34,100 nt of DNA, from contig CALPWK020000007.1 of NCBI GenBank assembly GCA_943327245.2, positions 1 to 34,100 of the forward strand, written 5' to 3'. Positions 5,806-11,632 of this stretch are shown in pieces (the first letter of the stretch is position 1; every line of letters starts with the position of its first letter). The notes beneath the pieces are model-generated. The model made no database searches. It saw only the letters and a list, made by a program, of their open reading frames with translations, and was not told where the DNA came from. The position numbers and the translations under genes are program-made. This DNA is from Comamonas sp. lk. GTDB taxonomy: Bacteria > Bacteroidota > Bacteroidia > Chitinophagales > Chitinophagaceae.

Positions 5806-7197
5806 ATGTCGAATCCTTTATCACGTCGCAAATTTGTACAAGATGCGGGTCTTACAACGATGGCTTTAGGTTTAAGTCCTCAAGTAATTAAAGCGCAATC
5901 CAATGCTAAAATGGATAAAGTACGAGTTGCCATAATTGGTACAGGATACCGTGGGCAAAACCATTTGGAAATGCTTTGTCAAAGAACTGATACCGTAATT
6001 GTGGCTTTTGCAGACCCTGATAAAGCCATGTTAGCTGATGCCCAAAAGATATTAAAAGAAGCGGGTCGTCCAGCGGCAGTAGAATATAATAATGGGAATG
6101 AAAACTTTAAACAACTTCTACAACGTACTGATATAGATGCAGTTATAATTGCTACACCATGGGAATGGCATATCCCACAAGCCTTAGAAGCTATGAAAAA
6201 TGGTATAATACCAGGTGTTGAAGTTTGTGGTGCTATCAAATTAACTGACTGTTGGGATATAGTGAATGCAAGTGAAAAAACAGGTATACCTGTTATGTGC
6301 CTTGAAAATGTATGTTATAGACGTGATGTATTAGCGGTGTATAATATGGTAAGAAAAGGGATGTTTGGGGAGTTATTGCATTTACAAGGTGGATATGAGC
6401 ACGATTTAAGAGGTGTAAAGTTTAATAATGGAATAACGGCCTACAATTCAGGGGTGGAATTTGGTGAAAAAGGACTAAGTGAGGCAAAATGGAGAACAAA
6501 TCACTCCTTATATAGAAACGGTGAGTTATATCCTACGCACGGGTTAGGTCCAGTAGCCATGATGGTAGATATTAATAGAGGGAACAGATTGACTTATTTA
6601 TCTTCTGTCGCCACTAAGGCAAGAGGTTTACATAAATATATAGTTAAACATCCACAAGGAGGTGATAATCACCCTAATGCGAAATTAAATTTTAAGTTGG
6701 GTGATATTGTAACCACTCAATTGCAGACTACTAATGGAGAGACTATTATATTAACACACGATACCAATTCCCCTCGTCCTTATAATTTAGGATTTAGAGT
6801 TCAAGGAACTCAGGGCTTATGGCAGGACTTTAGTTCGGGTGCATTAAATGCGGGACATATATATATAGAAGGGATTTCTCCAAAAGCACACCAATGGGAA
6901 AACCCAGAACCCTATTTAAAGGAACATGACCATCCACTTTGGAAGAAATATGAAAAGGATGCAGAAGGTTCTGGACATGGTGGTATGGACTTTTTTGTAG
7001 AGAATGCCTTTATTGAATGTATCAAACGTAAGGTTCCATTTCCTATAGATGTTTATGATTTAGCTACTTGGTATGCGGTTACCCCACTTTCAGAAAAGTC
7101 AATTGCTGAACATGGTCAGGTTCAAGAAATTCCAGACTTCACTCGTGGGAAATGGAAAAACAGAAAACCAGATTTTGCAATGAATGATATTTTCTAA
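5806..7197 (+). CDS. GH109-like Gfo/Idh/MocA-family glycosidase (putative alpha-N-acetylgalactosaminidase)
   Basis: Family GH109 enzymes use tightly bound NAD to cleave terminal alpha-N-acetylgalactosamine by an oxidation-elimination route. The ORF track starts at a TTG (5785); the ATG at 5806 gives 463 residues opening [15 protein letters not shown], a twin-arginine signal, so the enzyme is probably folded with its cofactor before export. A Rossmann motif follows ([15 protein letters not shown]), then [26 protein letters not shown], and the hallmark [18 protein letters not shown] segment containing the catalytic-region histidine. The C-terminus keeps the GHGGMDFF segment. Other exported Gfo/Idh/MocA oxidoreductases look similar, so substrate specificity is inferred. 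An AbgB-like amidohydrolase follows 44 bp later and is probably cotranscribed. Confidence 0.85.
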
Positions 7198-7241
7198 AAT
7201 TGTCCCAAATTAACATATTAATTAATAATTGAATACAACCT

Positions 7242-8702
7242 ATGCCTTTTAAAAAATTAGCTGCCACTACCCTTTTTTCATGCCTTCTAATTGTAGGACA
7301 GTCACAAAGTTTAAATAATGAGTCTTCCATAAAATTAGCAAAAGAGACAGCTAAAAATATTTTGAATGACGCTTGGCCAAGTGACAAAGCAACAAGTCTT
7401 AAATTATGGGATTATGCTGAAGTTGGGTTTAAGGAAAATAAGAGTGCTGCCTTACATGTTGCTCATTTAACAGAAGCCGGTTTTAAAGTAGAAATGGGAG
7501 TTGCGGAAATGCCAACTGCTTTTATGGCAACTTATGGTTCTGGAAAACCGGTAATTGGAATTTTAGCTGAATTTGATGCTTTACCAGGCTTGTCCCAGGA
7601 AGGCATTCCAGAAAAGTCAATCATTGCAGGTAAGAATGCGGGTCATGGTTGTGGACATGATATTTTTGGAACTGCTTCCGTGTCGGCTGGAATTGCTATT
7701 AAAAAACTAATCGAATCAGGTAAAATTAAAGGCACTATCAAAATATATGGTAGTCCTGCAGAAGAAGGTGGTGGAGGCAAAGTATATCTAGTCCGTGCTG
7801 GTTTATTTAATGATGTTGACGCCGTGATACATTGGCATCCTGGAAACAAGAACGAAGTAACTATGAAGAGTGCCCTAGCATATAAGTCTGCTAAATTTCG
7901 TTTTTATGGAATATCAGCTCATGCTGCAGCGCAGCCTGAACAAGGTAGGTCCGCATTAGATGGTGTAGAAGCAATGGATAATATGGTGAACATGATGCGA
8001 GAGCATATTCCACAAGAAACAAGAATTCACTATGTAATTACCAATGGTGGTAAAGCACCCAATGTGGTTCCAGATTTTGCAGAAGTTTTTTATTATGTGC
8101 GTCATCCTAAAAGAGATAAAGTAGTAGAAATTTTTGATCGTGTTGTTAAAGCTGCCGAAGGTGCGGCCATTGGAACAGGTACCACTATGAAATTTGAAGT
8201 CATTGACGGAACACATGATTTATTATTAAATAAAACTTTAGCCGATGTAATGCAGGTTAATTTAGAAGAAGTTGGTGGTATCCAATATACAGAAGCAGAA
8301 GTTACCTTTGCAAAAAAATTACAAACTAGTTTATTAGGGACTATCCCTCCTATCGACGATGCTTCGAAAGTATTTCCATTGAAAATAGAGATGACTTCTG
8401 GCGGCGGTTCAACAGATGTAGGGGATGTAAGTTATACGGTCCCTACTGTTGGCTTAAGTACAGCAACTTGGGTACCAGGCACACCAGCGCATAGTTGGCA
8501 AGCAGTTGCTTGTGGTGCAACAGAGATAGCAGCTAAAGGCATGTTAAATGCCTCTAAAACTATGGCAATGACTGCCATTGATCTATTTACTAAACCCGCC
8601 ATTATTGAAAAAGCCAAAGAAGAGTTTAAAAAACAAAAAGGAGATTATCAATATAAAGCATTGTTAGGAGATCGTTTACCTGCATTAACTTATAGAGACT
8701 AA
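7242..8702 (+). CDS. Exported M20-family amidohydrolase, AbgB-like
   Basis: M20 metallohydrolases cleave amide bonds of acyl- or aminoacyl-amino acids with a two-zinc centre. This 486-residue protein has the zinc motifs GHGCGHD (about residues 134-140) and PAEEGGGGK (about 172-180), a lid domain with GISAHAAAQPEQGRSALDG, and a late histidine in TPAHSWQA. The best family match is AbgB (aminobenzoyl-glutamate utilisation). Unlike cytosolic AbgB, it starts with a signal peptide (MPFKKLAATTLFSCLLIVGQSQS), so it should act outside the inner membrane. It sits 44 bp behind the GH109 gene. Its stop is only 4 bp from the stop of the convergent kinase gene. The natural substrate is unknown. Confidence 0.87.
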   Translation: MPFKKLAATTLFSCLLIVGQSQSLNNESSIKLAKETAKNILNDAWPSDKATSLKLWDYAEVGFKENKSAALHVAHLTEAGFKVEMGVAEMPTAFMATYGSGKPVIGILAEFDALPGLSQEGIPEKSIIAGKNAGHGCGHDIFGTASVSAGIAIKKLIESGKIKGTIKIYGSPAEEGGGGKVYLVRAGLFNDVDAVIHWHPGNKNEVTMKSALAYKSAKFRFYGISAHAAAQPEQGRSALDGVEAMDNMVNMMREHIPQETRIHYVITNGGKAPNVVPDFAEVFYYVRHPKRDKVVEIFDRVVKAAEGAAIGTGTTMKFEVIDGTHDLLLNKTLADVMQVNLEEVGGIQYTEAEVTFAKKLQTSLLGTIPPIDDASKVFPLKIEMTSGGGSTDVGDVSYTVPTVGLSTATWVPGTPAHSWQAVACGATEIAAKGMLNASKTMAMTAIDLFTKPAIIEKAKEEFKKQKGDYQYKALLGDRLPALTYRD

Positions 8703-10823: not shown

Positions 10824-10903
10824 TTTTTTTATAGAATAAATTTATTTCAGTGGTGATTTTATAGCTACTGTATTATTGAAGTTAAAATTTGAATTATTAA
10901 ATT

Positions 10904-11632
10904 ATGTCACAATCTATATTATTAGAAATCGCGGTTTTTAATATTGAGTCTGCCTTAAAAGCAATGATGGCAGGTGCTGATAGAATTGAGTTTTGTGAAA
11001 ATCCTCAAGAAGGGGGCACTACCCCGTCTTATGGAAGTTTACAAGTATTGTCTAAACTAGCCACTACTCCGGTTTTCCCAATTATAAGACCAAGAGGCGG
11101 AGATTTTTTATATACCGAATATGAATTCGAATCCATTAAGGAAGATTTAATAATGATAAAGCAATTAGATTATCCAGGAGCAGTTATTGGTTTATTAAAT
11201 AGGGATGGTTCCATTGACATAGATCGAACTTCCGCATTAGTTGAATTAGCTGGTGAAATGGAAATCACCTTTCACAGAGCCTTTGATAGATGCAATAATG
11301 CAGTTAAAGGTTTGGAAGCAATTATTCAAACGGGTTGCAAAAGAATTTTAACAAGTGGTCAAGTCCCTAATGCAAATGATGCATTGCCTGTATTAAAACA
11401 ATTAGTTGACCAAGCGGGAGATAGAATAATAATTATGCCTGGAAGTGGTGTTCGAGCAAATAATATTGATCATATAATTCAATCAACTGGTGCAAAAGAG
11501 ATTCATAGTTCAGCCAGAAAAATGTTTCCCTCAAAAATGAGTTTTAATCAATTAACTATGCAGGAACAGATGCAATTTACTGGAGTTGACGAAAATGAAA
11601 TAATAGAAATGTTAGCCAAAATAAATTGCTAG
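10904..11632 (+). CDS. cutC: CutC family protein
   Basis: This 242-residue cytosolic TIM barrel has the CutC hallmarks: EIAVFNIESALKAMMAGADR, IEFCENPQEGGTTPSYG, PIIRPRGGDF, TFHRAFD, RILTSGQ, IMPGSGVRANN and EIHSSA. CutC is usually labelled a copper-homeostasis protein, but in E. coli the copper phenotype has been traced to a small RNA encoded at the 3' end of the gene, so the protein's real activity is unsettled. The barrel is phosphosugar- or hydrolase-like in shape. Its position directly behind a glycosylasparaginase and near a HexNAc-kinase-like gene suggests a carbohydrate role, which is inference. No metal-binding Cys/His cluster typical of copper chaperones is visible. Confidence 0.93.
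   Translation: MSQSILLEIAVFNIESALKAMMAGADRIEFCENPQEGGTTPSYGSLQVLSKLATTPVFPIIRPRGGDFLYTEYEFESIKEDLIMIKQLDYPGAVIGLLNRDGSIDIDRTSALVELAGEMEITFHRAFDRCNNAVKGLEAIIQTGCKRILTSGQVPNANDALPVLKQLVDQAGDRIIIMPGSGVRANNIDHIIQSTGAKEIHSSARKMFPSKMSFNQLTMQEQMQFTGVDENEIIEMLAKINC

Follow-up and report, generated by a model that had tools for sequence, protein, structure and literature searches.

Two independently conserved gene pairs in a putative glycoprotein-catabolism island of the Bacteroidia, and the recurrence of CutC beside glycosylasparaginase in N-glycan operons

An experimental precedent for N-acetylgalactosamine (GalNAc) salvage is provided by Bacteroides thetaiotaomicron, whose polysaccharide utilization locus (PUL) BT4240-50 includes the GH109 enzyme BT4243 and the GalNAc kinase BT4240 (Ndeh et al. 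2025, PMC11992087). In Lactobacillus casei, the alf-2 pathway handles fucosyl-GlcNAc-Asn, and a glycosylasparaginase generates aspartate and 1-amino-GlcNAc, the latter being used as GlcNAc (PMC6960285). Copper phenotypes have been reported for CutC in Escherichia coli, a worm, and human cells, and its role in relation to copper has no agreed mechanism (PMC11083455). A cutC gene is also present in the nix N-glycan cluster of Xanthomonas (PMC6718126).

Members of these families are neighbors in a bacterium of freshwater type that belongs to the class Bacteroidia, within the 34,100-nucleotide stretch of DNA analyzed here (the window). ORF coordinates and Pfam, TIGR, and PDB matches confirmed the five adjacent genes and the families named for them in the initial annotation. 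Our results indicate that the island consists of two adjoining modules, GH109 with a sugar kinase and glycosylasparaginase (AGA) with CutC, together with an amidohydrolase that is probably a passenger. As the kinase gene lies on the minus strand, the island is not a single operon but comprises at least three transcription units. The start codons of the kinase and AGA genes are separated by a 65-bp divergent spacer (9715..9779), which presumably carries two divergent promoters; its length is similar among close relatives, and its alignment displays short conserved blocks. No SusC/SusD pair, nagA, or nagB was found among the window ORFs scanned (all but the truncated ORF at 33294-34100), as had been annotated, and in this respect the locus is not a SusC/SusD-type PUL. 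The initial annotation mentioned neither the minus-strand position of the kinase nor the division into two modules, nor the AGA-CutC-mannosidase operon described below, which is the most interesting part.

The GH109 gene corresponds to an ORF of 470 amino acids on the plus strand (5785-7197) with a likely start codon at 5806 (5806..7197). The NAD-binding GFO_IDH_MocA fold and the GH109 C-terminal domain (PF21252, E value of 7e-87) were both detected above the Pfam cut-offs. The top PDB match was the alpha-N-acetylgalactosaminidase of Elizabethkingia meningoseptica (2ixa, 630 bits), whose catalytic residues Y225 and H228 align with Y249 and H252 of the window protein (numbering of the 470-residue ORF). 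The His residue equivalent to H252 is essential in the S. linguale enzyme (PMC6521355). On the basis of domains and catalytic residues, the protein is a predicted alpha-GalNAc hydrolase that would depend on NAD. The kinase (8707..9714, minus strand) has an APH fold and an HxDxxxxN motif, with HxD at residues 198-200, and its top PDB match is the N-acetylhexosamine 1-kinase NahK (4ocu, 132 bits, E value of 2e-37). By analogy with BT4240 and NahK, it probably phosphorylates GalNAc (or GlcNAc) with ATP to the 1-phosphate. A search of genome contigs with the kinase as the query returned only three loci.

The GH109 and kinase genes are a known GalNAc-salvage pair, as in BT4243/BT4240. In our comparison of genus and class genomes, they lie within 2.5 kb of each other in 49 of the 56 relatives that possess both, in convergent order in 37 and on the same strand in 12. 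Other families have the pair as well (G180, G301, G329, G316, G342, and G119); in a Mucilaginibacter locus (L033) an aldose 1-epimerase gene intervenes, and two further loci (L036 and L052) display the order GH109, kinase, and a fucosidase-like gene, the last identified by eye. In the GH109 tree, two separate lineages accompany a single family-level kinase lineage, which indicates that GH109 has been replaced and re-paired. One locus initially considered as a BT4240-50 homolog (L163 in G108) was dropped, as inspection of its ORFs by eye revealed no clear resemblance.

Between these two genes lies the M20 amidohydrolase gene (7242..8702, plus strand), whose product matches TIGR01891 above the cut-off (243 bits). 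The amidohydrolase assignment is therefore sound, and the label "AbgB-like" that it had been given is loose, because its nearest PDB entries are HmrA and a Xaa-Arg dipeptidase. The Sec signal that had been proposed agrees with the appearance of the N terminus (MPFKKLAATTLFSCLLIVGQSQS), which is Sec-type as judged by eye. If all five genes formed one evolved pathway, this enzyme would trim the peptide or amide part of the substrate; the gene does share the strand of GH109 across a 44-nucleotide gap, and the insertion is common to seven genomes. In the other 40 of the 47 genomes that have both it and GH109, however, it is missing from this site, and a conserved core paralog is located elsewhere (G000:C14:12168-13541), in a non-glycan context (L053). 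We therefore rejected the five-gene unit, to which we give hardly any credence, and consider the gene probably a duplicate inserted in one clade, carried as a passenger, rather than the system member that it had been taken for.

The AGA gene (9780..10823, plus strand) encodes an Asparaginase_2 protein, identified as N4-(beta-N-acetylglucosaminyl)-L-asparaginase, that is closer to glycosylasparaginases (top PDB match, 354 bits) than to isoaspartyl peptidases (132 bits at best). Alignment with the E. meningoseptica enzyme (1p4k/3ljq) places W42, T206, T224, R234, and D237 at the positions of W11, T152, T170, R180, and D183, so that the substrate-binding Trp, Thr, Arg, and Asp residues are present, as is the Asp-Thr site typical of Ntn hydrolases; F13 of the E. 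meningoseptica enzyme is replaced by Ala44. The protein is thus a predicted zymogen that would be cleaved autoproteolytically between Asp205 and the nucleophile Thr206 (codons at 10392..10397). In aspartylglucosaminuria, the human counterpart of this enzyme is deficient.

The twin-arginine signals annotated on both exported enzymes held up. SRRKF (5821..5835) is present at the N terminus of GH109 and NRRGF at that of AGA, and the genome encodes TatC. Within the first 45 residues, RRx[FLIV] was found in 92 of 98 AGA relatives and 13 of 24 GH109 relatives (19 of 24 if RK is allowed), and in none of 76 kinases and 75 CutC proteins, in agreement with the cytosolic location assigned to the latter two.

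The CutC gene (10904..11632, plus strand) follows AGA. Among 61 genus genomes, 29 have GH109, kinase, AGA, and CutC in one contiguous stretch, and the co-location of the four genes is thus not confined to one genome. Within the genus, AGA-CutC adjacency is weak evidence, because the whole gyrA-AGA-CutC-serA-hppA block is syntenic; we set this synteny aside and judged the pair by a class-wide count. Of 75 genomes, 37, representing 13 of 25 families, have AGA and CutC no more than 2.5 kb apart, and in all 37 they share a strand with CutC downstream. About 0.13 such pairs would be expected under random placement (binomial, ignoring kinship and meant only as a guide), and the recurrence of neighbors, including that of GH109 and the kinase, is far above chance. 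Where a class genome possesses both AGA and CutC, they are nonadjacent in about half of the cases.

Many AGA-CutC loci are N-glycan operons with genes for an MFS transporter, a ROK kinase, GH20, AGA, CutC, a beta-mannosidase, and GH92. Three of them (L118, L120, and L137) show a 4-bp overlap of CutC with the mannosidase start, and in three other loci CutC adjoins GH20 or mannosidase genes without AGA (L147, L158, and L161). In a relative from the same family (L133), GH109, kinase, GH2 (a beta-galactosidase), ROK, SusC, SusD, PNGase F, AGA, CutC, and GH92 genes follow one another on one strand, so that all four core genes lie inside one SusC/D locus. A second AGA-CutC pair in G021 and G050 is located in a heparinase/GH88/SusCD locus, which is not an N-glycan locus.

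These arrangements bear on the alternative that only the GH109-kinase pair is functional here, AGA and CutC being housekeeping neighbors held together by synteny and CutC a copper-tolerance protein. The genus-wide gene order, kept irrespective of function, the separation of the two modules in deep members of the genus, and the copper phenotypes on record (PMC11083455) are consistent with it. In contrast, the constant order and strand of AGA-CutC amid varied surroundings in 13 families, its position inside glycosidase operons with 4-bp overlaps, the paralogous pairs in L041 and L042, and the cutC gene of the nix cluster (PMC6718126) make this alternative unlikely.

The CutC protein itself matches PF03932 (E value of 1.5e-70), and its structure model (pLDDT of 97) adopts the CutC TIM-barrel fold. 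In Foldseek searches, human CUTC (3iwp) and the Shigella protein (1twd) shared family and fold, with 39 to 42% identity in the structural alignment. The nearest non-CutC matches were triosephosphate isomerase, MJ1099, phosphoribosylanthranilate isomerase, thiamin phosphate synthase, and ribulose-phosphate epimerase, generic phosphate-binding barrels with TM scores of about 0.5 to 0.7, too weak to name a reaction type. Conserved residues at the barrel mouth suggest an enzyme, and the operon context suggests a function away from copper binding or homeostasis. As cutC recurs in sugar-chain-digesting operons of many bacterial families, the protein may in reality serve in sugar breakdown. It cannot act directly at the site of AGA, because AGA is predicted to be periplasmic and CutC cytosolic. 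We put forward tentatively, and at somewhat less than even chances, the possibility that CutC takes part as an enzyme in breaking down N-glycan cores, with metabolites derived from GlcNAc-Asn or GlcNAc as its substrates, and that the copper phenotypes are secondary. Its substrate could conceivably be the glycosylamine 1-amino-GlcNAc after uptake.

Taken together, the island is likely a compact cluster that derives from a PUL and serves the final steps of glycoprotein catabolism, composed of two independently conserved modules, with CutC acting downstream in the N-glycan-core pathway. GH109, exported by Tat in folded form with its NAD, would release terminal alpha-GalNAc (e.g., from GalNAc-Ser/Thr) in the periplasm; GalNAc would enter the cytosol and be converted by the minus-strand kinase to GalNAc-1-phosphate. 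From GlcNAc-Asn, the remnant of exoglycosidase and peptidase action, Tat-exported AGA would produce aspartate and 1-amino-GlcNAc; the latter would decompose to GlcNAc and ammonia, and CutC would be a cytosolic enzyme downstream of AGA in the same pathway rather than primarily a copper-handling protein. The families, export motifs, conserved pairings, and operon context were observed here, and the chemistry is extended from B. thetaiotaomicron for GH109 and the kinase and from other glycosylasparaginases for AGA. We infer foreign glycoproteins as the substrate source, as well as the transport steps and any catalytic role of CutC; the island contains no transporter gene. The scheme of periplasmic release and cytosolic amino-sugar salvage in the initial annotation is upheld by the conserved pairings, the L133 locus, and BT4243/BT4240 (PMC11992087), whereas a fundamental difference from a PUL is not supported, as the island looks like a reduced or dispersed PUL.

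A further reading, suggested for glycoproteins in the initial annotation, is that the cell uses the island to recycle its own glycoproteins or its surface glycans. In favor of this reading, enzymes of the island are exported, and it lacks SusC/SusD, an endoglycosidase, and a regulator. However, the same genes in relatives occur in SusC/D import loci together with genes for PNGase F, GH92, GH20, and beta-mannosidase, a combination to be expected for eukaryotic-type N-glycans, and the genome itself has a separate locus with GH92 beside SusC/D (L148) and encodes GH20; SusC/SusD was identified by eye at G000:C157. PNGase F and GH2 beta-mannosidase were not detected in this 90% complete genome with one concatenated query, by which weak homologs may be missed. 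To our knowledge, Asn-linked GlcNAc is not an established modification of this bacterial group's own proteins. We consider own-glycan recycling very improbable.

The GalNAc half of the system was already known; our results carry this pathway, so far shown in a gut Bacteroides, across a genus and into several families. The unexpected result is that CutC, annotated for copper, has been built repeatedly into Bacteroidia operons that dismantle N-linked sugar chains, beside AGA. This offers a concrete alternative for a gene conserved from bacteria to humans.

Among the closest described systems is BT4240-50, which shares with the window a GH109 alpha-GalNAcase and a GalNAc-1-kinase, periplasmic release, cytosolic phosphorylation, and a product phosphorylated at the 1 position. 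That PUL includes SusC/D, an M60 peptidase, GH2, and MFS genes, whereas the window has no SusC/D and adds AGA-CutC; neither an asparaginase nor CutC is mentioned for the B. thetaiotaomicron PUL (PMC11992087). NahK of Bifidobacterium longum shares the APH-type family and the likely reaction with the window kinase but is only distant kin (132 bits), and a preference of the latter for GalNAc would follow the analogy with BT4240. Among solved structures, those of the GH109 enzyme (2ixa) and glycosylasparaginase (3ljq, 1p4k) of E. meningoseptica are nearest to the two exported enzymes, with aligned key residues; unlike the window genes, the E. meningoseptica genes are not known to adjoin a kinase gene or each other. 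The glycosylasparaginase of the alf-2 pathway likewise yields aspartate and 1-amino-GlcNAc, but it is cytosolic and supplied by MFS uptake of the glycoamino acid, with no mention of CutC, whereas the window AGA is predicted to be periplasmic. Known CutC members (3iwp, 1twd) are described via copper, with no substrate reported in the cited literature. The nix cluster of Xanthomonas, from another phylum, resembles the AGA-CutC operons in that cutC is clustered with beta-hexosaminidase, beta-mannosidase, and alpha-mannosidase genes, but CutC was interpreted there only as copper resistance, and the AGA-CutC pair was not described (PMC6718126).

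Our reading of the window places five neighboring ORFs between positions 5785 and 11632, confirming the arrangement described in the initial annotation, and the family assignments proposed there were backed by Pfam, NCBIfam, and PDB sequence searches. The first gene (plus strand, probable ATG at 5806) encodes a GH109 protein matching the Elizabethkingia meningoseptica alpha-N-acetylgalactosaminidase (2ixa; 630 bits), whose Tyr/His pair is kept in the alignment as Y249/H252. The second (7242-8702, plus strand) encodes an M20 amidohydrolase; membership in the amidohydrolase family is supported (TIGR01891), but the designation "AbgB-like" is loose. 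The remaining genes encode an APH-fold kinase (minus strand), whose sole solved relatives are N-acetylhexosamine 1-kinases, a glycosylasparaginase (AGA; plus strand), and CutC (plus strand; profile searches). AGA matches the E. meningoseptica enzyme with 354 bits; equivalents of W11, T152, T170, R180, and D183 are all present, and F13 is replaced by Ala. Because the kinase gene is convergent with the amidohydrolase gene and divergent from the AGA gene across a 65-bp spacer, the island is not one operon. The spacer (9715-9779) contains short conserved blocks, TAAAwGTAC toward the kinase gene and a CGTATCTTGA-like block toward the AGA gene, which are possibly two divergent promoters.

The twin-arginine signals proposed for GH109 and AGA are real. 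The motif RRx[FLIV] was found in the first 45 residues of 92 of 98 AGA relatives and 13 of 24 GH109 relatives (19 of 24 when RK is allowed), and in none of 76 kinases or 75 CutC proteins. TatC is encoded in the genome, and the tightly bound NAD of GH109 would be consistent with Tat export.

The window is an entire contig of a 2.19-Mb genome assembled in 216 contigs (about 90% complete), and neighborhoods were compared in this genome and 100 relatives, 60 of them congeneric, counting genes within 2.5 kb as neighbors. GH109 and the kinase were neighbors in 49 of the 56 genomes harboring both, AGA and CutC in 53 of 64, and the kinase and AGA in 39 of 54. All four genes occurred together in 29 of the 61 genus genomes, and so their co-location does recur. 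The amidohydrolase, which had been counted as a member of the system, neighbors GH109 in only 7 of the 47 genomes with both, and the presence of a 74% identical paralog elsewhere in the genome marks the copy in the island as a clade-specific insertion. The other copy of this duplicated gene, found genus-wide (L053:5585-7045), adjoins genes resembling, by eye, those for guanylate kinase and a short-chain dehydrogenase. Farther along the window, a serine beta-lactamase-fold protein found genus-wide (about 46 to 80% identity) occupies the serA-hppA interval (12996-14219), and a BlaI-type repressor and a BlaR1-like M56 peptidase are encoded downstream of the pyrophosphatase gene hppA (16800-18704).

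Twelve genus members that are more distantly related carry GH109 and the kinase as a pair on one strand; in the three of these whose AGA surroundings were read (G017, G047, and G043), AGA-CutC lies upstream of serA and hppA without this pair. In G010 and G033, the kinase adjoins AGA, with GH109 elsewhere. In trees, the GH109 proteins of the convergent order belong to a different lineage from those of the same-strand order, whereas the family's kinases form one group (support of about 0.95). Two distinct GH109 lineages have thus come to lie beside the same kinase, and this argues for a functional link more strongly than synteny does. Other families have the pair as well, with an intervening aldose 1-epimerase gene in Mucilaginibacter sp. 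OK268, and in two loci (L036 and L052) it is followed by a gene that reads by eye as an alpha-L-fucosidase. In G078 (L050:6233-8573), a nucleotidyltransferase gene directly follows GH109, possibly providing the next step for GalNAc-1-phosphate.

As the entire gyrA-hppA block is syntenic within the genus, the AGA-CutC pair was examined in genomes from across the class. Among 75 sampled genomes with both genes, at least 37, from at least 13 of 25 families, harbor them within 2.5 kb; these counts are lower bounds, and random placement would give about 0.13 by an estimate that ignores phylogeny. In all 37 close pairs listed, CutC is downstream of AGA on the same strand. Surroundings of roughly 15 kb provide a reason for the pairing, as they contain N-glycan operons with exoglycosidases for the Man-GlcNAc2-Asn core. 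In three loci (L118, L120, and L137), MFS and/or ROK and GH20 are followed by AGA, CutC, beta-mannosidase, and GH92, and the CutC gene shares 4 bp with the start of the mannosidase gene; five others have similar subsets. Even with AGA elsewhere in the genome, CutC lies beside GH20 and beta-mannosidase in three loci (L147, L158, and L161) and beside GH92 in another (L155). In a member of the family of our organism (L133:1044-19999), GH109, kinase, GH2 beta-galactosidase, ROK, SusC-like receptor, SusD, PNGase F, AGA, CutC, and GH92 genes lie on one strand, indicating that both pairs can belong to one glycoprotein PUL. This single run combines O- and N-glycan degradation, and its PNGase F has a tail for type IX secretion. 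Two genus members also harbor a diverged second AGA-CutC pair (L041:3137-8485 and L042:4982-13999), which stays together outside an N-glycan context: its locus contains SusC/SusD, GH88, DUF4861, and a heparinase-like protein, and an AraC-type regulator lies next to it.

The genome itself has single matches for GH92 (contig C157, adjoining SusC/SusD-like ORFs), GH20 (C45), and a ROK kinase (C104, adjoining an MFS gene), and no match for PNGase F or GH2 mannosidase in the approximately 90% available. With this dispersal, the window has the look of a glycoprotein PUL in reduced and dispersed form. The initial interpretation, glycoprotein and amino-sugar turnover, is thus right in outline for four genes and wrong for the amidohydrolase. 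Its suggestion that the cell's own glycoproteins are the substrate is unsupported; as relatives hold import loci, foreign glycoprotein debris seems likelier. The organism is probably from freshwater, judging from its two nearest named MAG loci, both of uncultured Bacteroidetes.

CutC is confidently predicted to be a TIM barrel (pLDDT 97). Residues invariant in 26 diverse homologs include E8, E29, R62, D128, S151, G180, and H201, with H124 and R125 almost invariant, and in the model these would be located at or just past the C-terminal strand ends, where barrel enzymes have their active sites. Outside CutC itself, Foldseek retrieved only generic phosphate-binding barrels. In Lactobacillus casei, the AGA product 1-amino-GlcNAc is described as staying unmetabolized until its spontaneous breakdown at acidic pH (PMC6960285), which makes it attractive, but unproven, that CutC acts on 1-amino-GlcNAc or another GlcNAc-derived metabolite. 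As AGA is predicted to be periplasmic and CutC cytosolic, uptake would have to come first. A review describes the copper binding of human CUTC as weak and the protein as an unlikely copper chaperone, while still linking it to copper homeostasis (PMC11083455).

The GalNAc half of this system is already known in kind from the Bacteroides thetaiotaomicron PUL BT4240-50, in which the GH109 enzyme BT4243 acts on Tn antigen and mucin fragments to free GalNAc. The kinase BT4240 forms the 1-phosphate, with a selectivity of about 275-fold for GalNAc relative to GlcNAc, and growth on GalNAc depends on this kinase (PMC11992087). The part worth following is the class-wide link of CutC to N-glycan operons. 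We found no paper treating CutC together with glycosylasparaginase in the open-license literature and, in a limited look there, no proposal linking CutC with mannosidases or N-glycans beyond PMC6718126. That study reported the Xanthomonas nix N-glycan cluster "together with cutC" and interpreted the presence of cutC as copper resistance.
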